This document shows positions 8,838 through 43,319 of a DNA stretch of 64,000 nucleotides, piece after piece; position 1 is the first letter of the stretch, and the number at the start of each line of letters is the position of its first letter. A program made the translations under genes and the position numbers. The stretch spans positions 434,001-498,000 of the forward strand of contig NZ_CP151792.1 in the NCBI RefSeq assembly GCF_038446525.1. The letters are read 5' to 3'. The notes beneath the pieces are model-generated. The model saw nothing but the letters and a program-made list of their open reading frames with translations, was not told the origin of the DNA and ran no database searches. This stretch comes from Methanolobus sp. ZRKC5. Its GTDB lineage: Archaea; Halobacteriota; Methanosarcinia; Methanosarcinales; Methanosarcinaceae.

Positions 8838-9734
8838 ATGGATATCAGGGATTTCGTAAAAAAACAGGAAGCTGCCCTAAAAAAATACCGCAGGGCCTAT
8901 AAGCTAATAGATTTCCTGACAATTTCACTGGTGCTTTTTACCCTGCTGTTCCTGTTAAGTATGGATAAAGCATTTGCCATGATGAGTACTTTTGAAGTAA
9001 GGGCAGGAACAAGTTACGATTTCGCAGGTATAAGCATTGCATTTGAAACTGTCGCACTGGCATTTATTTCCGCATTTCTGGCTTTGATATTGACCTTCCT
9101 GATACACAGACGTGATGACAGGACCGGTATTTTACTAGTAGTAGAAGAAAAGTATCCAAACCTGCAGGAAAAACTACGTACTGCATACGATAACAGGGAT
9201 ACTGACAACATAATAGTGAAGGACCTGTTAAATATAGTATCCTCAGGCATTTCAAAAGTTCAGTCTTCAGCTTTTCTAAGAAGAAGACGGCTTACACTAG
9301 GCTTGGTGCTGATACTTATCTCTGCTTCAACACTTGGTATCATCATGTCGAATGACATTCGTACAGGTGTTGGTCCGGATGATTTTGAAAAACTTCTGGA
9401 AGATGCGGGGCTTCTGCCAGATGATGACAACACACCTGACGACCTTTATGATATCGACGACCAGACCAGTGACACTGGTGATTCTGGTAATGAAAACCTG
9501 ACCGGAGAGACTGCAATCATTGTTGTAGAGGGAACTGAAGTCGACCTGACACTTCCACCTGGAACAGGAACAGGTTTCTCAAACCAGCAAGAAGCAGAAG
9601 AAGCTGATGAGGACTTTGACCAGTCATCACCCTACGAAATAAGCATCATTTCATCCCAGGCATATTATGAAGAGCTTCCTGAAGGATATGAAAGTGTTAT
9701 CAAATCTTATTTTGAAGAGATGGCTAAAAACTGA
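8838..9734 (+). CDS. Membrane protein, first gene of MoxR/vWA operon
   Basis: A 298-residue protein with three predicted membrane segments: residues about 24-50, 63-88 (VALAFISAFLALILTFL) and 150-170. An acidic extracellular-type tail of about 120 residues is rich in Asp/Thr/Gly and probably disordered. The first part contains a coiled, charged segment between the membrane spans. GGTG precedes the ATG. I recognise it only as the conserved membrane protein that leads MoxR-DUF58-vWA operons in Euryarchaeota. It probably anchors or senses for that complex, which is inference. Confidence 0.75.
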   Translation: MDIRDFVKKQEAALKKYRRAYKLIDFLTISLVLFTLLFLLSMDKAFAMMSTFEVRAGTSYDFAGISIAFETVALAFISAFLALILTFLIHRRDDRTGILLVVEEKYPNLQEKLRTAYDNRDTDNIIVKDLLNIVSSGISKVQSSAFLRRRRLTLGLVLILISASTLGIIMSNDIRTGVGPDDFEKLLEDAGLLPDDDNTPDDLYDIDDQTSDTGDSGNENLTGETAIIVVEGTEVDLTLPPGTGTGFSNQQEAEEADEDFDQSSPYEISIISSQAYYEELPEGYESVIKSYFEEMAKN

Positions 9735-9785
9735 ACATTACATTTATAATTTACATTCATAGGACAAAGACAAAGGAGATAATAA

Positions 9786-10757
9786 ATGGCAAGCGACCTG
9801 AATTCAAGTGACCTGTCGCAAACATACAAAATGGCCGGCGATATGTTTGCAACGCTTTTCAACGAGGTTGGAAAGGTAGTTGTCGGCCAGCATGCTTCAG
9901 TGGAACAGATCATAATTTCAATATTATGCAACGGGCATGCACTGATAGAAAGTAACCCAGGTCTTGGAAAAACACTGACAATTTCAACCATTTCAAAATC
10001 AATGGATCTGAATTTCAGCAGGATACAGTGTACACCAGATCTGATGCCTGCTGATATCACTGGAACGCATATCATCGAAGAAACAGATGGACACAAAGAA
10101 TTCAAGTTTGAGCCAGGACCGATCTTTGCCAATATTGTACTTGCTGATGAGATCAATCGTGCATCTCCAAAGACACAGTCCGCATTGCTTGAGGCAATGC
10201 AGGAGAAGCAAATAACCGTTGGTAATGATACATTCATTCTTGAACAGCCTTTTTTCATATTGGCAACCCAGAACCCTATTGAAATGGAAGGAACCTTCCC
10301 TCTACCGGAAGCACAACTTGACAGATTCCTGCTTAAGATCCTTGTGGATTATCCGAACTACGAAGATGAGATAGAGATCGTTAACCGGTACACAAAGTCC
10401 ATCATGCCCACCGTTGGCAAAGTGGTAAATAAGAATACACTTCTTGACCTGCAAAAACTGACAAGAGATGTACCAATTGCAGATGATATAAAAAGCAGGG
10501 CCATTAAGATCGTCATATCGACACGTATCAAAAGCGAGTTCATCGAATATGGTGCATCCCCCAGGGCTTCAATAGGAATTATACTTGCAGCAAAAGCAAG
10601 GGCTTTGATACAGGGACGCAATTATGTCAGTGCAGAAGATATTGATGCCATGGCATACCCGGTACTCAGGCACAGGATAATTCTAACCTTTGAAGCAGAA
10701 AGAAGAGGAATAAGCACTGACCAGGTTATCAAAAGCTTGCTTGAGAAAATAAAGTAA
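9786..10757 (+). CDS. MoxR-family AAA+ ATPase
   Basis: A 323-residue MoxR ATPase with Walker A in ESNPGLGKTL near residue 57, Walker B in IVLADEINR near residue 120, the family signature TQNPIEMEGTFPLPEAQLDRF and a C-terminal lid domain. MoxR proteins act as chaperone-like motors with vWA proteins, inserting metals or remodelling complexes. The three downstream genes encode the matching DUF58 and vWA partners. A good ribosome-binding site (AAAGGAGAT) precedes the ATG. Confidence 0.95.
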   Translation: MASDLNSSDLSQTYKMAGDMFATLFNEVGKVVVGQHASVEQIIISILCNGHALIESNPGLGKTLTISTISKSMDLNFSRIQCTPDLMPADITGTHIIEETDGHKEFKFEPGPIFANIVLADEINRASPKTQSALLEAMQEKQITVGNDTFILEQPFFILATQNPIEMEGTFPLPEAQLDRFLLKILVDYPNYEDEIEIVNRYTKSIMPTVGKVVNKNTLLDLQKLTRDVPIADDIKSRAIKIVISTRIKSEFIEYGASPRASIGIILAAKARALIQGRNYVSAEDIDAMAYPVLRHRIILTFEAERRGISTDQVIKSLLEKIK

Positions 10758-33254: not shown

Positions 33255-33725
33255 TCATTCACATTCCTCTAAAGAATCTCTAATTGAGGGTATCTTTTCC
33301 TGATCGAACAATCCCTCAACTGAATCGCACATTGACAGAATCCTATCAGCATCGGATAGCTCAGGTTCACCATGATAATAATCGTCAATAGAACAAATAC
33401 CGAATATCTTATCCATAGACCTAATCTCTTTGTTCAATTCTTCCGGTACATCGATAATCATTTCCACAGTATCCATCAAGCAGGTGTAATTGTGATTAAA
33501 TGGTTCCACGTCATACAAATAACACAAAGCAACAAGATAACGTTCAAGTGCGAGTGAGGATACGTTGAATACAACACTATGATCCTGTCCTTCTGTCTGG
33601 AACTGTCTTGCTCTACGAAGGTATGCCTTTGAGTCACGGTATTCCTGTTCAAATTCGTCAAATCTCGACTTTTTTCCATAAATTCCAGCCTCATCTGATA
33701 ACCTCCTATTGTGATTAAAAAACAT
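33255..33725 (-). CDS. HEPN-like helical protein
   Basis: A 156-residue soluble all-helical protein. The segment VFNVSSLALERYLVALCYLYDVEPFNHNYTCLMD resembles the core of HEPN domains (a helix with conserved Ser-Leu-E then a His-containing second helix). The RxxxxH nuclease motif of active HEPN RNases is not visible, so a binding role is more likely. It lies 139 bases beyond the zinc-ribbon gene of the ESCRT/SPFH region, in the same direction, and may or may not belong to it. Confidence 0.6.
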   Translation of the reverse strand: MFFNHNRRLSDEAGIYGKKSRFDEFEQEYRDSKAYLRRARQFQTEGQDHSVVFNVSSLALERYLVALCYLYDVEPFNHNYTCLMDTVEMIIDVPEELNKEIRSMDKIFGICSIDDYYHGEPELSDADRILSMCDSVEGLFDQEKIPSIRDSLEECE

Positions 33726-33864: not shown

Positions 33865-35394
33865 TTAATCAAGTTTCTGCCCACAATTAATACAGAACTT
33901 TTCACTGCCAGCAACTTCCCGTCCACACTGAGGACACGTTCTTTTACCGTTACCAATATTCGAGCGCTGAATAACACTGTCCTGTATTGTGGTGTTGCTT
34001 ATATTATACTGGGTTACAGAATCATCAACAAAAAGTTTGATATCAGTTCTTTTTTCAATCTCTTCAAGTATCTTATGATAGAAACCTGTAAGCGCTTCTT
34101 CTTTTTCAGCCCATGCTTTTACTATTAGCCTTGATTTACGTTTACCCACCACTTCAACATATGCAGCATACTTCAAACCAGCCACACCTTCGCCGTAAAA
34201 CCTTGCCACACCGGTGAACAGTTGTTGTGTGGACGTTACCTCAGGTACTATCATAAACATGTTCATATCTTTCAGGATGCGTGTGGCCATATCAAAAAGG
34301 TTCTCAGCCGGAATTACAAGATCCTTGGTATCTTCTTCTGCAATCATCATAGAACTGATATTTAGTCTCCATTCAGCCTCATCGACCTCTTTAACCTTGA
34401 GCACCGGGCAGACTATATCCACCATTTTGTTACTAAGATCGAACTGAACATGCTTTTTCTGTATGTAATCATAATAACGAATATTTCCTGCCAATATACA
34501 ATTCCCGCACTCACCAGTTGGCCTGATCAAAAAAGTTGCAGTTTTTCCCTCCCTTGGCTGAAGCATAGGTATTGTCTTCTGATTATCCTTGATGCAGAAG
34601 ACCTCGGGAACAAAGAGACTTATGGTTATATCACCCATCGGCTCTTCTGAAGTGTTTTCAACCTTGATCTTGTAAAGAATATTTGCGCCTTTGTACTGGA
34701 GAGCTGATTTGATTACCACAGGGTCACGTTTTGAAGTTGCTGTCGTCACAATTCCAGCTTCAGTATTTACAGCTGTTTTTGAACTCTTCTCTTTCCCATA
34801 TGAAGAGGAAAACGCAGCTTTCTTTTTTTCCTTTTTGAGAGCTTTTTTATCTTTGCCTTTCTTTGATACTTTACGCATCAGTAAAACTGCCACAATAACT
34901 ACGGCAAGAATTGCAAATATTTCATATAATTTATCTTCTGCAGAAGTATCGGAGTAATAGGAAGAATCCGCATAGTCAGTTGAGTAATCAAGCTGCTGGT
35001 CATCTGCATTTTCATCGTAAGTAACGGTATAATCAGGATAGATGTAGGTATCTGAAAGAACTACGTAATCATAACCATAGAATGAATCATAATATACATC
35101 ATCAATTTTGAATTGAAGGGTCAAATGGTCATCCTGGTAAGAAAAGTACCCCCCTCGCGAGTAATACTGGTCCCAGACCATAGTGTCATAATATGACACC
35201 ACAAATCTTACAGTTTCATCGTAGGTATCAATATCCATTACAGTCAGGTAGTAACCATCCTGAATCTCTGCTATCTCACCTTCAGAAAGTGTAATTTCAT
35301 AGTCGTCTGCAAATGCAGAACCAGCATTCAGGCAAAAGATGCTGCATGCAAGAAGCAGTATAATCAGAGCTTTGGAAGATTTTTGTACCAACAT
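33865..35394 (-). CDS. Exported Ig-like membrane protein with C-terminal zinc ribbon
   Basis: A 509-residue protein. A signal peptide (ALIILLLACSIFCLNAGSAFA) leads to a Tyr/Asp-rich extracellular domain of about 115 residues, one membrane helix (FAILAVVIVAVLLM, near 168) and a Lys-rich stop-transfer. The cytoplasmic part has an Ig-like domain (about 230-330), an alpha/beta domain (about 340-465) and a zinc ribbon CPQCGREVAGSEKFCINCG. The motif DSVIQRSN before the ribbon also occurs in the protein at 38862-40595, with similar Ig and C-terminal domains, so the two are paralogues. GGTGA is unusually close to the ATG; TTG one codon later is an alternative start. Confidence 0.85.
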   Translation of the reverse strand: MLVQKSSKALIILLLACSIFCLNAGSAFADDYEITLSEGEIAEIQDGYYLTVMDIDTYDETVRFVVSYYDTMVWDQYYSRGGYFSYQDDHLTLQFKIDDVYYDSFYGYDYVVLSDTYIYPDYTVTYDENADDQQLDYSTDYADSSYYSDTSAEDKLYEIFAILAVVIVAVLLMRKVSKKGKDKKALKKEKKKAAFSSSYGKEKSSKTAVNTEAGIVTTATSKRDPVVIKSALQYKGANILYKIKVENTSEEPMGDITISLFVPEVFCIKDNQKTIPMLQPREGKTATFLIRPTGECGNCILAGNIRYYDYIQKKHVQFDLSNKMVDIVCPVLKVKEVDEAEWRLNISSMMIAEEDTKDLVIPAENLFDMATRILKDMNMFMIVPEVTSTQQLFTGVARFYGEGVAGLKYAAYVEVVGKRKSRLIVKAWAEKEEALTGFYHKILEEIEKRTDIKLFVDDSVTQYNISNTTIQDSVIQRSNIGNGKRTCPQCGREVAGSEKFCINCGQKLD

Positions 35395-35498: not shown

Positions 35499-36791
35499 TC
35501 AAATATCAGTAAGTTTTTTACCACACTGGCTACAAAAGCTCGATTCGGAAGGAAGTGTTGAACCACAACCTGGACATTTTCTCACGGTTGATGATATCTT
35601 GCCCTGCGCTGCCCCCATCAGAGAAGCATCAAGCTCCTTTCTTCGATATGAATCAGCGCGTTCCCTGTCCTCAACTTCCATCATAAAACTAACCTTGTCC
35701 TCCTTTGCAACAGCCTCACTCTGTTTGACCTTTGCAAGTGCTTCCAGTTGCTCTGGCGACATACGTCCGTATTCACGACCCTCACTCACAGTCTTGGCGA
35801 CATCGACTCCACCAGCTTCTGTAATATGTTTGAGGTATTCCATATCACGACCATGATCACGGTCTTTCATGTCCTGTTCGACTTCAAGCTCCGCCCGCAT
35901 TCCTCGAGCCTTTGCAAGTTTTAATTCTTCCTTAAGGCCAATGGCTTCCCTGGCTTCCCGCATGTCTGCTTCATGTTGCAACCTTTCGATATCAATATCA
36001 GACTTGGCATCCCCCAACTTTTGATTGCGTTGAAAATCCCTTTCTGTTGAAATTGTTGCATGACCTGCACGTATTTCTGCTACTTCTTCTCTTCCCCTGC
36101 GCTCAGAATACCCCTCTGTTGTAAGAGTATCAAGCTCAGCAAGTTCTTCCTTTGTCTGAAAATCATTGGTCGCCTGCATAACCTTTCCATAAGAACCAAG
36201 GTCCCACTGGACTGTATATTTCAGCATTTCCAGCCCCCACATAGACAATGTGGACCGAACCCTCATTTCAAGCTCGTTCTCTATATTAAGGCAAAGGTTC
36301 CTGTTCCCATACAGTTTTTCTATGTCTTCCTGCCTGACCTCAGGTTCAAGGACAAGGGTAAGCACTTCATCCTCAAGGCGAGAATATATATCCTGTACGG
36401 AAAGTACTCGGGTTCCCTTTTTATCAGGTGTTGTATAAGCATAGAGCATCTGGAAGAAACGTTTTGGATCCTGTACCCTGAACCTGAGTAGTCCACTGCA
36501 AGCTACCTTCTGATTATCCCTGGTCCATAGTTCGGATTGCGTCCATTGCAAATCCTTTGAAGAGGTGTCCATCAGGACAACATCCACATCTTTCCCAATA
36601 TTGCCCGGTTTTAAAAGGCCACCAACCTTCAATTTACCGCTGTCTACAATCTCATCAACAACTCCATTCTTTACCATGGCTGCCTTTTCATTCGGAGAGA
36701 GGATTACTGCTTTACTGAAAAAACCTCCAACTTCCTTTTTAGGAACCACCCTGGCAACATCATCTGCTTCTCTTTTCCATTTGAACGCCAT
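35499..36791 (-). CDS. SPFH (band 7/flotillin-like) protein with zinc ribbon
   Basis: A 430-residue protein. The SPFH domain spans about residues 20-210 (AVILSPNEKAAMVKNG, LLRFRVQDPKRFF, RVRSTLSMWGLEMLKY), followed by a long highly charged coiled coil (about 215-370, ERLQHEADMREAREAIG) and a C-terminal zinc ribbon CPGCGSTLPSESSFCSQCG. No membrane helix is present, so membrane binding would be peripheral, as in related YdjI/YdjO-type SPFH proteins. SPFH proteins form ring or cage scaffolds on membranes. It heads the minus-strand arm divergent from the ESCRT-III/Vps4 arm. Confidence 0.9.
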   Translation of the reverse strand: MAFKWKREADDVARVVPKKEVGGFFSKAVILSPNEKAAMVKNGVVDEIVDSGKLKVGGLLKPGNIGKDVDVVLMDTSSKDLQWTQSELWTRDNQKVACSGLLRFRVQDPKRFFQMLYAYTTPDKKGTRVLSVQDIYSRLEDEVLTLVLEPEVRQEDIEKLYGNRNLCLNIENELEMRVRSTLSMWGLEMLKYTVQWDLGSYGKVMQATNDFQTKEELAELDTLTTEGYSERRGREEVAEIRAGHATISTERDFQRNQKLGDAKSDIDIERLQHEADMREAREAIGLKEELKLAKARGMRAELEVEQDMKDRDHGRDMEYLKHITEAGGVDVAKTVSEGREYGRMSPEQLEALAKVKQSEAVAKEDKVSFMMEVEDRERADSYRRKELDASLMGAAQGKISSTVRKCPGCGSTLPSESSFCSQCGKKLTDI

Positions 36792-36850: not shown

Positions 36851-36891
36851 TATTATATATATTGTTTTCCATTGTATACATAAGCATACAA
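36851..36891. promoter_or_regulatory. Divergent promoter with TTGTAT-N8-ATACAA operator candidate
   Basis: A TATA-type run TATTATATATATTG (36851-36864) lies between the divergent SPFH and ribbon-helix-helix genes. Just downstream, TTGTAT (36872-36877) and ATACAA (36886-36891) form a 20-bp inverted repeat over the expected plus-strand start. The ribbon-helix-helix protein encoded immediately downstream is the natural candidate to bind it and control both arms. Confidence 0.5.
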
Positions 36892-36914: not shown

Positions 36915-37070
36915 ATGGCTAATTCGTACCCGGTGAGTGCAAGAATCTCAGAAGACAGTAAACTATATCTGGATACATTAGTAGAAATGGGAATAGCTAT
37001 CAATAAATCTGAAGCTATGAAACTGTGTATACGATATGCAAAACAGAAAAGAATGGAAGAGGAATTGTAA
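36915..37070 (+). CDS. Ribbon-helix-helix (CopG/Arc-type) small DNA-binding protein
   Basis: A 51-residue protein. A short beta strand (YPVSARIS) is followed by two helices (EDSKLYLDTLVEMGI and NKSEAMKLCIRYAKQKRM), the standard ribbon-helix-helix plan with the N-cap NKSEA. The stop TAA shares its last base with the ATG of the ESCRT-III-like gene, so translation is coupled. Likely autoregulator of the cluster. Confidence 0.72.
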   Translation: MANSYPVSARISEDSKLYLDTLVEMGIAINKSEAMKLCIRYAKQKRMEEEL

Positions 37071-37639
37071 TGGCATTAAAGAATCCATTTAAGAAGGTAT
37101 CACCCGAAGAGCTGAAAACAAAACTTAGCATTTCCGAGCAAAGACTAACAAGCCGTGAAAAGGAACTGATGAAAAAACAACAGAAATCCAGGGAACAGGC
37201 TAAAGAAGCTCTTGCAAATGGAAACGACAGAGAATTCAGAGTTGCATCACGAAGACATTCCCTTGTTGAGGGTCAGGTCAACACCATTAGCAGCATGGTA
37301 GAGATGGCACAATCCATGACCGATGTAATTGAGATGCAAACCGGCCTAAAGGAAGTTGTTGAAATTGGCGAGGACCTGGGAAAATGGCAAAAACAACTTG
37401 GCTTTGATACCAATAAACTCGAAGGTGCTGTAACAAACATAAGAACCTCCATGGAAAAAGTAAATACAGCAACAAGTATGATGACATCCTCCATGGATGC
37501 AGCAATGAGTGGTGGGAATGAACTCTCTGATATGCAGGATTCATTAAGATCAGAACTCCTTGCAGAGCTATCAAGCGAGACACCAGAAAAAGATGAGCTT
37601 TCAAAGAAGATCGAATCCGAAATGGCAGATACCGAATAA
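37070..37639 (+). CDS. ESCRT-III/Snf7-like protein
   Basis: A 189-residue, almost entirely helical, charged protein. A short basic N-terminus (KNPFKK) precedes a long Lys/Glu/Gln-rich helix (LKTKLSISEQRLTSREKE) and a second helix with the Snf7-type pattern of basic residues and LxxQ (SRRHSLVEGQVNTISSMVEM). Shorter helices, a Ser/Met-rich linker and an acidic C-terminal tail (LLAELSSETPEKDELSKKI) follow. Basic core with acidic tail and family length match ESCRT-III/CdvB. ATG 37070 is supported by GAGGA and by overlap with the previous stop. The Vps4-like ATPase follows 53 bases later, which is the usual genomic partner. No unambiguous MIM motif is seen. Confidence 0.78.
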   Translation: MALKNPFKKVSPEELKTKLSISEQRLTSREKELMKKQQKSREQAKEALANGNDREFRVASRRHSLVEGQVNTISSMVEMAQSMTDVIEMQTGLKEVVEIGEDLGKWQKQLGFDTNKLEGAVTNIRTSMEKVNTATSMMTSSMDAAMSGGNELSDMQDSLRSELLAELSSETPEKDELSKKIESEMADTE

Positions 37640-37692: not shown

Positions 37693-38856
37693 TTGAACTC
37701 AGCCATCACATTTGCTGCACAAGCGCGCGGTTATGCAAAAGCTGCAAAGGACCTGGAAGACAGAGGTCAATCTGAAAGAGCGCGTGAATTATACCTGAAA
37801 GCTGCCAAGCTCTACAACGATGCTTCCAATATGCTTGGTGATGGTATTGACCGCAACACACAGCGCGACCTTGCAGAACATCTTTTTGCCAGAGCCCAAG
37901 CGCTTAAAAGAGGTTCTGCTGTTTTGTCTTCTGACGGAAATAACCAGAGCAGAAAGGATTCCGGAAGCAACGATGAATCTTCTCTTTCAAAAGATGATGT
38001 TTTTCTCAAAGAAATGCCTGACATTGGATTTTCAGACATCGGTGGCCTTGAACAGGTGAAAGAGGAAATACGAAAAGCTATAATTTACCCGTTCACACAT
38101 AAAGAACTCTACAATATGTACGGCCAAAAAGCCGGCGAAGGGATTTTACTATATGGTCCCCCTGGTTGTGGTAAAACCATGATGGCAAAAGCAGCTGCAA
38201 AAGAATGCGGAGCTGAGTTCATCAGTGTCAAGACCAGCAGTATTGTAAGTAAATGGGTGGGTGCTTCGGAAAAGAATGTAAAGCAGGTTTTTGACATTGC
38301 CCGCAAGGGAAAGAGATCCATTATCTTTTTTGACGAGATTGATTCTATTGCCGGAAGACGCAGTGAAAGTGAAGACTATGCAAAGAGAGTTGTAAACGAA
38401 CTTTTAGCGCAAATGGATGGTGTGGATACTGATTCTGATAATCTTCTGGTGCTTGCAGCTACAAATGAACCATGGGCAATCGACCCTGCCCTGAGACGCC
38501 CGGGGCGTTTCAGCAAACTTGTCTTTGTTCCTGAGCCAGACACTGATGCTAGGATAGCGATTCTAAATATACATTTGAAAAAGCGACCCGTTGATAATGA
38601 TGTCGATATAAATCGTCTGGCTACAATTACAAATTCCTACTCCGGTGCAGATCTGGCGGCTATATGCAAGGAAGCTGCAGACATTCCACTTGGAGAAGCT
38701 TTGAGAGGTAGCGAACCAAGAAAAATAAGACTTCAGGACTTCGAAGCCGTATTACAAAAGAGAAAACCATCCATCGTTAGCTGGTATATAGAAGCCAGAT
38801 CCTCTATCCAGAAGACTGGTGAAGAAGATGTCTTTTCTGAACTACTAAAAAAGTGA
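37693..38856 (+). CDS. Vps4/CdvC-like MIT-AAA ATPase
   Basis: A 387-residue protein. Residues 1-75 form a three-helix MIT domain (YAKAAKDLEDRGQSERAREL, YLKAAKLYNDASNML). The AAA domain has Walker A GPPGCGKT (155-162), the Vps4-type pore loop SSIVSKWVGASE (182-193), Walker B IIFFDEID (210-217) with Glu 215, and arginine fingers in LRRPGRF (267-273). The C-terminal KPSIVSWYI helix matches Vps4. The Vps4 beta domain is absent, as in archaeal CdvC. It should disassemble ESCRT-III polymers. The start is TTG, backed by GAGGTG 6 bases before it; no upstream ATG exists and the next Met would cut the MIT domain. Confidence 0.93.
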   Translation: MNSAITFAAQARGYAKAAKDLEDRGQSERARELYLKAAKLYNDASNMLGDGIDRNTQRDLAEHLFARAQALKRGSAVLSSDGNNQSRKDSGSNDESSLSKDDVFLKEMPDIGFSDIGGLEQVKEEIRKAIIYPFTHKELYNMYGQKAGEGILLYGPPGCGKTMMAKAAAKECGAEFISVKTSSIVSKWVGASEKNVKQVFDIARKGKRSIIFFDEIDSIAGRRSESEDYAKRVVNELLAQMDGVDTDSDNLLVLAATNEPWAIDPALRRPGRFSKLVFVPEPDTDARIAILNIHLKKRPVDNDVDINRLATITNSYSGADLAAICKEAADIPLGEALRGSEPRKIRLQDFEAVLQKRKPSIVSWYIEARSSIQKTGEEDVFSELLKK

Positions 38857-38861
38857 TTCTA

Positions 38862-40595
38862 ATGCCGCTGAAATGGTCATATTTCGACCCCCGTGATAAC
38901 CTGCGTATAGGTATTTACATAGGCCTCTTCTTTGGTCTAGGAGGAGGATTTCCCCGTATAATAGCAAGTGGAATGATAGGGTTTATACTTGCAGCTATCA
39001 CTGCATATATTGTTCCAAAAGTGATTAGCGGAAATGCTAAAAATGAACAAACTGAAGATAGCATTCTTCCCCATGCAATTTTTACAGGAGTTATAATAGC
39101 AATATTCGGTGCTTTGGTCTTCTCTTCATTTGAACCAGTTCCTTTAATCGCAATTTTTGTCTGCCCTCTGGTTTCACTTCGATCGGGTTCCAGAGTCAGA
39201 ACAGCTATAAAAGAAATGAATGCGGAAAAAGAAATCAAAAGAATAAAAAAACTCGAGCACGAAAAACAGATTAATGAAGCACTTAATATTGCCATAGACA
39301 TACAACAACCTTTGAAAGCAGAAACGGAAAATCCAGTAAAGGTAACCATCATAAATCCTTCTGACATACCAATAACGAACGTCTCAATACGAGCGGAGTG
39401 TTCCCGTCTCGTTCGATGTGAAGAAAACGTGGTAAGTATTGACGTTATAAATGCAGAATCATCCGGCTATACTGCTATTTTTCTGTACCCCAGACTTCCA
39501 GATAATATCGATCTTGGTAAAATATATGTTTCCTACCTAGTCAATGGAAATTATTATAAAAAGGAGCCTATTGACATAGGAATTTATGAAGTATCAAAAG
39601 GCAGCCCAGTAATGGATAGCAATAATCCTGAATTAAGAACTCAGATACAGGTATTCAGGGAAACTGAATTCTACCAGGGTTTTGTCCGTTTGAAAATGTC
39701 TGTTAACAATGTATCCGCTCTTGTGGTTAATGATGTAGCATTGGATTTTGATTTTGATGAACACCTTTTCAGGATAGACAGATTTGAACCGATGTATTCC
39801 GCAAAGAATGACAAATTGCTACTCGGAAACATAGAAGGTAACAATTCAAAGTCGGTTATGATTTATTTCGATCCCCTCATCTGTTCGAAGTCCTCTGAGA
39901 TAAAATGCAGAATATTCTACAAGGATGCAAAAGGGAAACTGCAGAACACAGAGATGGAAACAAAAAGAATTGCAGTGACATGTCCTATTATGAAAACAAA
40001 TTCTAACATAAATATCGGAATGCTTCGGGAACTTTTGGCTGCGCTTCCTTTCAGGGATAGTAAAGTATATCATATCAAATCAGACTTTGATATTGTAACA
40101 CTTATGAACATGTGTCGCGAGATGGTGCAGCATCATGATATAAGACATGTTCGGACCTTGAGAAACAAAGATGGAAATCATTATGAAACCTGGTACTATG
40201 GCAACACAAAGGTGAATGACCATGACATCATCCTGAAGATCACAATCTCTGGAGATACAGGTAGTATCGAACTTTTTGGTGCAACGCAGACAGCCGAGTC
40301 ACTTGTAGGTATGCTTGCAGAATTCGGTCGTGAACTTTGCAGGGAGATGAAATCGAGTTTGAATGGAAAAAACGATGTTAAGCAGATAGTAAATGTAACC
40401 ATAAAAGATTCCATAATCCAACGCAGCAACTTGCTGAACTCATGTGATCTTAATGGCAATTGTGAAGACAATGTTATTGTAGAGGATAGCGTGATACAAA
40501 AATCAGAGTTTATGGTTAATTATTGTCCTTCATGCGGTTCTAAAATTTCCCAAGGTGCAAACTTTTGCAGTGAATGCGGAATGAAGATTACATAA
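38862..40595 (+). CDS. Membrane protein with Ig-like domains and zinc ribbon
   Basis: A 577-residue protein. Four N-terminal membrane segments in two hairpins (residues about 16-50 and 66-105) lead to a basic coiled segment (NAEKEIKRIKKLEHEKQ). Two Ig-like domains (about 135-250 and 265-375, the second ending in AVTCPIMK), an alpha/beta domain (about 385-505), two DSxIQxS motifs and a zinc ribbon CPSCGSKISQGANFCSECG follow. The last 300 residues match the protein at 33865-35394 in order and motif. It starts 5 bases after the Vps4-like stop with GTGAT upstream. Likely a cytoplasm-facing membrane platform of the ESCRT-type system. Confidence 0.85.
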   Translation: MPLKWSYFDPRDNLRIGIYIGLFFGLGGGFPRIIASGMIGFILAAITAYIVPKVISGNAKNEQTEDSILPHAIFTGVIIAIFGALVFSSFEPVPLIAIFVCPLVSLRSGSRVRTAIKEMNAEKEIKRIKKLEHEKQINEALNIAIDIQQPLKAETENPVKVTIINPSDIPITNVSIRAECSRLVRCEENVVSIDVINAESSGYTAIFLYPRLPDNIDLGKIYVSYLVNGNYYKKEPIDIGIYEVSKGSPVMDSNNPELRTQIQVFRETEFYQGFVRLKMSVNNVSALVVNDVALDFDFDEHLFRIDRFEPMYSAKNDKLLLGNIEGNNSKSVMIYFDPLICSKSSEIKCRIFYKDAKGKLQNTEMETKRIAVTCPIMKTNSNINIGMLRELLAALPFRDSKVYHIKSDFDIVTLMNMCREMVQHHDIRHVRTLRNKDGNHYETWYYGNTKVNDHDIILKITISGDTGSIELFGATQTAESLVGMLAEFGRELCREMKSSLNGKNDVKQIVNVTIKDSIIQRSNLLNSCDLNGNCEDNVIVEDSVIQKSEFMVNYCPSCGSKISQGANFCSECGMKIT

Positions 40596-40669: not shown

Positions 40670-41932
40670 ATGAAATTCGGACCTCTAGAGGATGTAGCTA
40701 AATCACTTGCTCATGCGCTTCAGAACAAAGCAGGTGGTCGGAGTGGACTTTTCTTCCAGATATATTCATTTTTATGGATTGTACTTTCCACATACTTGAT
40801 AGCAAGTCTCATACTATCCATTAATAGTAAACTTGATCTAATATATGCTGCCAGTGCACCGATATACATTTTTCTTCTTTATATCATAATCTACATTTTC
40901 TGGACATATGAAAAGAGAGTCGGTATTGAAAGCAGAAGAGTAAAAGAGTTACAAATTGTTGATTCCGTAAATCTAGAATATAAATTTACAGAACCTGCGG
41001 AACTCGGATTTAGCAATATGCTTTTCTTCAGGGTAAATAATCCCACTGAAAAAATGATAGAGAACATCTGGATAAGGGCAGCATTTCCCGGAACCATTCG
41101 ATGCGATAAACCTGTTTTGAATCTTGGAGATATTGAGCCAATCTCTTCGGTGTCGTCTTCTTTCTCTTTTATACCCCTGGTAGCAGGAACTATGTCCATG
41201 GGCTATTGTGACCTTTACCTTGAGGTTAACAATAACAAACACCAAAAACATCCAATCTTTTTTGGGAATATTGACATTGTCCATTCATTCTTTGAATTAA
41301 AATTTGAGCAACTTGAAACACTTCGACTTGGGCAAAGTTCTACAATATCCATTAAAATGAAAAACACCTTAAATGTTGATCTGATTAATCTGCATGTGAA
41401 ATCTTCTTTCCCAAAAGGACTGAAATATGATACAGCGTTTTCAGATACAAAGAATATGGCACCTGATTCATCTTATGGCGTCACATATCAGATCATGCCA
41501 ACAATTGCAGGCATATTGGATATTGGATATTTTGAAATTATATTTACCCTGGGTAACAACAATTGCAAGATAGGCCCCGTGGCTTTTGGAGAGCAACACA
41601 TACAGATCCCTGATGTGAATGTTAAGATCAATGTTCCTGAAACACTATATAGTGAGGTTGGGAACACACTGAATATTTATGTAGAGAACAGATCGGATGA
41701 AACTGTCAGCAATGTTTGCTTTAATAGCTGCTTCTCTTCTTTTGTAGAATGTCAGAATACTGATGCTTGCATACCTGAAATACAGCCACATTCCTCAGCA
41801 TATACGTCCCTTGCAATAAAACCGATCAACGCTGGAAAAATCGATCTTGGAAACCTCAATTTTTCCTTTGAGGTGAATGAAGTTCTTTGCCAGCAAGAAC
41901 CCATTGATCTTGGAACACATGAAATAGCATGA
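40670..41932 (+). CDS. Membrane protein with three Ig-like repeats
   Basis: A 420-residue protein with two membrane segments (about 28-52 and 58-80) followed by three repeats of roughly 105 residues. Each repeat is beta-rich and has the pattern N-P/T/R-x-x-x-V-x-N-V with a closing Gly-x-I-D-L/I-G strand (SMGYCDLYLEV, DIGYFEIIF, IDLGNLNFSFEV). The repeats resemble the first Ig-like domain of the upstream membrane protein (PIDIGIYEVSKG against PIDLGTHEIA). It lacks the zinc ribbon. No enzyme motif. Fourth structural gene of the ESCRT-type arm. Confidence 0.8.
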   Translation: MKFGPLEDVAKSLAHALQNKAGGRSGLFFQIYSFLWIVLSTYLIASLILSINSKLDLIYAASAPIYIFLLYIIIYIFWTYEKRVGIESRRVKELQIVDSVNLEYKFTEPAELGFSNMLFFRVNNPTEKMIENIWIRAAFPGTIRCDKPVLNLGDIEPISSVSSSFSFIPLVAGTMSMGYCDLYLEVNNNKHQKHPIFFGNIDIVHSFFELKFEQLETLRLGQSSTISIKMKNTLNVDLINLHVKSSFPKGLKYDTAFSDTKNMAPDSSYGVTYQIMPTIAGILDIGYFEIIFTLGNNNCKIGPVAFGEQHIQIPDVNVKINVPETLYSEVGNTLNIYVENRSDETVSNVCFNSCFSSFVECQNTDACIPEIQPHSSAYTSLAIKPINAGKIDLGNLNFSFEVNEVLCQQEPIDLGTHEIA

Positions 41933-42047: not shown

Positions 42048-43319
42048 ATGGAAGTACTAAAAGACCCCGAAGCTCTGGAAAAGAATAATCGGCAAATTGT
42101 GGTCAGGAACCTGAACGATGTTTATAGCTCTATTGAAAAACTTATCCAGCGAACGTATGCACAAAAAGAGACAGACATCAATTTCCAGCTTCGCAATATC
42201 AGGACAAATGTATCCCAACTTCTTTCAGATATAAAAAATAAAGAACTTGTTGGATTTTCTGATAGAAAAGGTACATTAGAGGATTTTTACAGGACAGAAA
42301 ACAACTTGTTGGAAGAATCTGCCACAGTGAAAGACGTTTTCTCCTCACTTGTCAGTCCAACAAAGTCTATTGATATTTTTCTGTTGGAAGATCTTCTTGA
42401 GAACTTAAAAAAAGACATTGATCAGCGCATTATTGTAGACAAGAATATGCTCAAAGAGTTCAAACTAAAACAAATGGAAGCAAAGAGTGCAGAACATGTA
42501 ATCTCCGGTGAGAAACAGATTTCAATTGAAACTGATGATGATGCTTCAATTCCCTCCCAAGTAAAGAATATAGGAAGGTCATCTGGATCTTCAAGCTCCT
42601 CCAAAAATATATTAGCGCCTTCAATGAATTCTGGTAGAATAGTTTCAGGTGAAATTAAGAAAAATGTAGAGGAAAGTATCAATACTGAAATGCTTTCAAA
42701 ACTCTATAATTACATGAACGCACAGGAACACAAATATTCTATACACCAGGCTGAAATATCATTCAATGGAGAATATATCGGAGATAAAAAATGGAAAGTT
42801 AACAAATCGGACAAATTCATTTCCGGAAGCATAATGAATACTGTTTTAAAGCCTCTTCTCACATTTGAGACATACTGGCATCCATTTGATGACCTCAGAA
42901 CTATTATGCAGTTTGTACAGAGAGAAGCAAACGCCGTTCCAAAAGGCCAATATAAAAGTATTTGTATTTTGAATTCAGAGTGGAAAAGTGATATTAAAAT
43001 CTGGTCACAAAATTATGTACATCCACGCATGATTCTCTATCTTTATAATCTTGAGAATGATGAGTTACTATTTGATAAGAACGTGGAACGTGCAGACCAA
43101 CTTAAAGTATGGCATAATTTAGATACCTACATAACTCTTGAGAATGAAATTTTATCCCTGATAGAACAAACTGAATCATTTGATGCTGAAGATGTAGCTG
43201 AAAACACAGGATTAAGTATCAACGGAGCTAAAAAATTAATTTCAATAATGCTTTCCAGAAACAAAATAATTGATCTGGGATTTGGAACATCCAGCTATAC
43301 TGGAATTAAAAATAAATAA
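42048..43319 (+). CDS. Coiled-coil protein with C-terminal winged helix
   Basis: A 423-residue soluble protein I do not recognise. The N-terminal 150 residues are helical with likely coiled coil (YSSIEKLIQRTYAQKETDIN, LEDLLENLKKDIDQRI). A Ser-rich linker (SSGSSSSSKN) leads to an alpha/beta domain (about 230-360, KSICILNSEWKSDIKIW; RMILYLYN) and a C-terminal winged helix (IEQTESFDAEDVAENTGLS, NGAKKLISIMLSRNKI). It is last in the plus-strand arm and 115 bases after its neighbour. ESCRT-III proteins of archaea and Asgards often bind winged-helix partners, so an adaptor role is one possibility. Confidence 0.75.
   Translation: MEVLKDPEALEKNNRQIVVRNLNDVYSSIEKLIQRTYAQKETDINFQLRNIRTNVSQLLSDIKNKELVGFSDRKGTLEDFYRTENNLLEESATVKDVFSSLVSPTKSIDIFLLEDLLENLKKDIDQRIIVDKNMLKEFKLKQMEAKSAEHVISGEKQISIETDDDASIPSQVKNIGRSSGSSSSSKNILAPSMNSGRIVSGEIKKNVEESINTEMLSKLYNYMNAQEHKYSIHQAEISFNGEYIGDKKWKVNKSDKFISGSIMNTVLKPLLTFETYWHPFDDLRTIMQFVQREANAVPKGQYKSICILNSEWKSDIKIWSQNYVHPRMILYLYNLENDELLFDKNVERADQLKVWHNLDTYITLENEILSLIEQTESFDAEDVAENTGLSINGAKKLISIMLSRNKIIDLGFGTSSYTGIKNK

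Follow-up and report, generated by a model that had tools for sequence, protein, structure and literature searches.

A putative ESCRT-III subunit encoded between a ribbon-helix-helix-like gene and a Vps4-like ATPase gene in Methanolobus sp. ZRKC5

What role do ESCRT machines have in archaea for which FtsZ already provides a means of division? This question is raised by a locus in Methanolobus sp. ZRKC5, whose genome is a near-complete, single contig of 3.05 Mb. In the 64,000-nucleotide stretch of this contig that was analysed (here, referred to as the window), a first-pass annotation made from the letters alone had read the forward-strand ORF at 37070-37639 (ATG start, 189 aa) as an ESCRT-III-like polymer subunit located directly before its ATPase. 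The type of system in question, Meth_adaptin, is already known from genomics, having been described by a comparative analysis in the main text of Makarova et al. 2024 (PMC10936438), and our literature search found no experimental work on it. To this, the present analysis adds a ribbon-helix-helix (RHH)-like gene, an operator-like DNA element, a distinction between core and accessory genes and a wider distribution. The locus is compact and patchily inherited within one cultured genus, which is itself close to methanogens with genetics, and a direct comparison of strains with and without it would therefore be feasible.

Conservation and predicted fold of the ESCRT-III-like protein

The ORF is a genuine gene and not a chance reading frame. 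Homologues occur in 30 members of a set of 100 related genomes, ranging from Methanolobus through Methanoperedens, with sequence identities of about 65-96% and a mean column identity of 84% in an alignment of 19 homologues. The alpha2-alpha3 core is the best-conserved region of the protein and the C-terminal 20 residues are the least conserved. The basic N-terminus and core and the acidic tail noted in the annotation were recovered as a net charge of +8 at residues 1-62 and of -9 at residues 148-189, and its remark that a clear MIM motif is absent also holds: a strict MIM1/MIM2 scan of the window protein returned zero matches, as did a relaxed MIM1 scan of the 19 homologues. The C-terminus does carry a conserved amphipathic helix (L177-I181-M185) which resembles MIM1 without matching it, and this helix is the likely, putative MIT ligand of the protein.

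An AlphaFold model of the protein, built with 19 homologues, contains helices at residues 12-49, 53-109, 115-147, 149-169 and 173-188, with a pLDDT of about 80-90 for the core (helices 12-49 and 53-109) and poorer values for the tail. The first two helices are predicted to form the long alpha1-alpha2 hairpin on whose absence the annotation was to be given up. When the model was searched against the PDB using Foldseek, ESCRT-III family members headed the list, which supports the original reading of the ORF as an ESCRT-III-like subunit. The top match was S. islandicus CdvB (probability 1.00), and the leading matches further included the Snf7 core/N-terminal domain (probability 0.99, rmsd 2.6 across about 101 residues), Asgard ESCRT-IIIB (probability 0.98), CHMP1B/IST1 and Vipp1. 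The leading ESCRT-III matches (CdvB, Asgard ESCRT-IIIB, Snf7 and CHMP1B) have probabilities of 0.9-1.0 with E-values all >0.001, and BAR proteins and designed bundles, which long helical hairpins match too, are also in the list; the case from the fold therefore lies in the concentration of ESCRT-III entries and not in any single score.

At the sequence level, the Pfam Snf7 model matches 17 of the 19 homologues (best value 2.7e-4), all below the curated cut-off. In the window protein, residues 17-172 are aligned to positions 4-164 of the 171 in the model, likewise below the cut-off. In the same test, the Snf7 model left unmatched those euryarchaeal main-clade proteins whose gene context is ESCRT-III-like, and a profile-profile comparison, based on shallow alignments, with four ESCRT-III proteins of that clade was not significant; homology to ESCRT-III at the sequence level is thus weak. 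Sequence searches of the PDB with the single sequence and with the profile produced chance matches only. The Snf7 model was also run on 295 genomes of the phylum, where it returned a mixed set of matches that included PspA-like haloarchaeal-type proteins, and its matches are therefore unusable as a clean family census. Short Pfam matches to Stathmin and Flagellin_C were judged to be coiled-coil noise.

The Vps4-like ATPase and the conserved neighbourhood

The next ORF on the same strand (37693-38856, TTG start, 387 aa) begins after a spacing of 53 bp and encodes an AAA ATPase (Pfam AAA, E = 2.8e-45) with an MIT-like domain at residues 4-73 and a linker at 74-101. MIT-AAA proteins have three N-terminal helices followed by a disordered linker, and the ATPase is predicted to have the same arrangement (helices 4-23, 27-46 and 54-73, then a disordered linker). 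The Pfam MIT model is spanned by a match at residues 10-72 (E = 0.0051) that is below the cut-off, as is the match to Vps4_C (E = 0.046), and the NCBIfam CdvC profile aligned end to end with the protein, again below its own cut-off. For the AAA core, the Cdc48 and PAN models score slightly above CdvC, and p97/Cdc48 proteins are the best sequence and structure matches. In a tree with long branches, in which TACK and eukaryotic sequences were not included, the ATPase clusters with the main-clade euryarchaeal Vps4-like ATPases (clade 96/90) and apart from the Cdc48/PAN of the host. The Vps4-like neighbour on which the annotation had leaned is thereby upheld through the predicted three-helix MIT, the weak Pfam MIT match and the placement in the tree.

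Among the 100 related genomes, ESCRT-III and the MIT domain were found together in 26. In four genomes ESCRT-III was found alone, either as a partial match or on a contig that is short or broken; four matches to MIT alone are weak and lie in shorter frames. Another family of the phylum has an MIT-AAA ATPase 51% identical to the window Vps4, encoded at 9422-10576 on the reverse strand of L116, and no ESCRT-III was seen on this short contig.

The gene order around the two ORFs is also conserved. A divergent gene on the reverse strand (35499-36791) encodes an SPFH/Band 7 protein with a C-terminal zinc ribbon (Pfam Band_7 1.1e-7, plus the zinc ribbon) and is kept at all 22 named loci. The ATPase is found downstream of ESCRT-III at 18 of these loci; three of the remaining four end at a contig end, and at the other (L052) no ATPase >100 bits was detected within about 7 kb of ESCRT-III. 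Beyond the SPFH gene, the reverse-strand ORF at 33865-35394 encodes a membrane-anchored protein, conserved at most loci, with an N-terminal extracytoplasmic domain, a TM segment (signal/TM called from sequence), an adaptin-appendage-like region with a weak BBS1 GAE-domain match, and a zinc ribbon; by analogy with PMC10936438, its extracytoplasmic domain may be GOLD-like. Downstream of the ATPase, the forward-strand ORF at 38868-40595 encodes a membrane protein with an Ig/appendage-like region and a C-terminal zinc ribbon (Zn_Ribbon_1 8e-8), conserved at many loci but not all. Further along the same strand, the ORF at 42048-43319 encodes a coiled-coil protein with a putative C-terminal winged helix (wH), recognised by alignment and ESCRT-III-adjacent at most loci. 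Weak single-member Pfam matches in this family (EAP30/Vps36 0.0086, PCI 0.012 and HTH) include EAP30/Vps36 and PCI hits that suggest an ESCRT-II-like candidate. The protein is fast-evolving.

Five Methanolobus genomes without ESCRT have the same neighbourhood but lack the SPFH, ESCRT-III, Vps4 and wH genes, while retaining an Ig-repeat membrane protein gene, which in the window is on the forward strand at 40670-41932 (Transglut_C Ig-like 9.8e-10, TRAPPC13_C 1.9e-6). This pattern suggests joint gain or loss of the core genes as one unit. Three of the five also retain a HEPN-like gene, located at 33255-33725 in the window. As the Ig gene, in some genomes together with the HEPN gene, persists at the same site without ESCRT, the two are probably not core parts, and the Ig gene is probably accessory or independent.

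The small upstream gene and its DNA element

Immediately before the ESCRT-III-like gene, the forward strand encodes a 51-aa RHH-like protein (36915-37070), the TAA stop of which overlaps the ATG start of ESCRT-III (TAATG). The RHH-like ORF is directly upstream of ESCRT-III at 22 of the 22 named loci. Each of the 29 genomes in which it occurs, out of the 100 relatives, also carries ESCRT-III, and in the one ESCRT-III carrier that lacks it the ESCRT-III match is no more than partial. Its matches to known families are weak: Pfam RHH_1 matches 8 of 15 members (best 9.9e-4), NCBIfam AbmR matches 15 of 15 (best 2.5e-7) in the C-terminal region and below the whole-protein cut-off, and NCBIfam CdrS weakly matches 4 of 15. 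The gene is unmentioned in the main text of Makarova et al. 2024 (PMC10936438) and, given its small size, is probably easy for annotators to miss; it has apparently been overlooked before and is probably new here.

Upstream of this gene, between the SPFH and ESCRT-III genes, lies a promoter/operator-like element at 36851-36891 consisting of a TATA-box-like TATTATATATA followed by TTTTCCATTGTATACATAAGCATACAA, with a palindromic core TGTATACA at 36873-36880. The TATA-like box and the TTTTCCATTGTATACA element are conserved upstream of the RHH-like gene as far as Methanoperedens. At 22 of 22 homologous loci the element was found 18-93 bp before the RHH start with 17-27 of 27 consensus matches. Its right half differs between clades; L032 and L039 contain an exact 16-bp palindrome, CCATTGTATACAATGG, and in L045 and L046 the core of the element has diverged. 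One copy is present in the window against 0.00 expected, and the version found in the window is unique in the whole genome. A scan with a sigma-70 promoter model, which is not applicable to archaea, found nothing.

The 51-aa protein is probably an autoregulator of the ESCRT operon, a putative function for which there is precedent: RHH proteins regulate division genes, namely CdrS in Haloarchaea and aCcr1, which acts on cdvA in Saccharolobus (Sulfolobales) (PMC7617429). Combining these elements, we lean, with modest confidence, towards the view that methanogens and Methanoperedens carry their ESCRT operon as a self-regulated module. In it, an RHH protein translationally coupled to ESCRT-III would bind a single palindromic operator next to the TATA box that drives the operon, and perhaps also the divergent SPFH gene, such that vesiculation would be switched on as a unit, and the MIT domain would release ESCRT-III via a non-canonical C-terminal helix. 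The RHH gene and the operator-like element provide a handle on the timing of ESCRT use.

Proposed role, rival explanations and relation to known systems

By analogy with the families involved, we infer a cycle in which the basic N-terminus and alpha1 would recruit ESCRT-III monomers to the inner face of the membrane, at sites that the SPFH protein, together with the adaptin-appendage proteins anchored in the membrane, may organise. The monomers would then polymerise by opening their alpha1-alpha2/3 hairpin. The adjacent ATPase would bind the amphipathic helix at their C-terminus (about residues 173-188) through its MIT domain, and its hexamer would thread and remove ESCRT-III subunits, with the membrane being remodelled or cut as a result. 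The RHH protein, translated just before ESCRT-III, would probably repress the operon promoter. The host genome has three tubulin-family genes over the cut-off, and because FtsZ/tubulin-family genes are present, the output of the methanogen ESCRT is likely to be vesicle formation or protein sorting and not division.

The alternative of a cell-division machine like the Cdv of TACK archaea has in its favour that the Cdv core is also ESCRT-III plus Vps4 and that the RHH regulators CdrS (Haloarchaea) and aCcr1 (Sulfolobales) control division genes. We consider it unlikely in view of the tubulin/FtsZ-family genes in the genome, of the SPFH and adaptin-like partners, which suggest sorting, and of the many close relatives that are missing the ESCRT module, on which division across the genus therefore cannot depend in general. 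It is very unlikely that the protein is a PspA/Vipp1-type membrane-stress protein with an acquired AAA partner instead of a CdvB/Snf7-type ESCRT-III: Pfam PspA is unmatched whereas Snf7 is the recurrent family, CdvB is the closest structure and the MIT-AAA partner is co-inherited, although Vipp1 appears among the Foldseek matches, PspA-type proteins are present in Methanosarcinales (PMC8281802) and bacterial PspA has known SPFH partners. The mechanism under such a reading would be close anyway, since PspA/Vipp1 and ESCRT-III belong to the same superfamily. The chance is slimmer still that the gene product is a helical protein unrelated to ESCRT-III which lacks polymer activity and serves a Cdc48-like ATPase as adaptor or substrate; the ATPase core closest to Cdc48/p97 and the low sequence similarity to known ESCRT-III would fit such a protein, but the fold, the Snf7 signal, the MIT-like domain and the tree argue against it. 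We regard it as highly probable that the product of 37070-37639 is the ESCRT-III subunit in an archaeal ESCRT system of the Meth_adaptin type.

With the Meth_adaptin systems, as presented in the main text of PMC10936438, the locus has in common an MIT-bearing Vps4 with ESCRT-III upstream of it, an SPFH protein with a coiled coil and a zinc ribbon, and two adaptin-appendage-like membrane proteins (appendage regions judged from sequence), one with a zinc ribbon and the other with an extracytoplasmic domain and a TM linker. A Pfam scan of genes at the locus did not detect the ProX-like gene of Meth_adaptin; by the methods in PMC10936438, a locus qualifies if most of the components, or all of them, are present. 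That main text places Meth_adaptin in Methanobacteriales, whereas the family described here occurs in Methanosarcinaceae and Methanoperedens.

In the euryarchaeal 'Main' clade, ESCRT-III is also directly 5' of Vps4 (L118), the N-termini are similar (MGLKNYFKRK versus MGLTNPFKKV) and an acidic C-terminal helix is shared (e.g. L118, L115), but the loci of that clade have kinases in place of the SPFH and adaptin-like proteins. The main-clade-like locus at L118:4913-11649 has two helical (ESCRT-III-like) genes with an AAA ATPase near each. With the CdvB/CdvC of TACK archaea, used in Sulfolobus cell division, the locus shares an ESCRT-III hairpin fold beside an MIT-AAA ATPase; it differs in that no CdvA was seen, in having neither a fused winged helix nor a proline-rich MIM2, and in the presence of FtsZ-family genes. 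Finally, a small RHH-type protein tied to division or ESCRT genes is a feature in common with CdrS and aCcr1 (PMC7617429), but the RHH-like gene described here, of putative function, is located inside the ESCRT operon itself, with its stop codon overlapping the ESCRT-III start.
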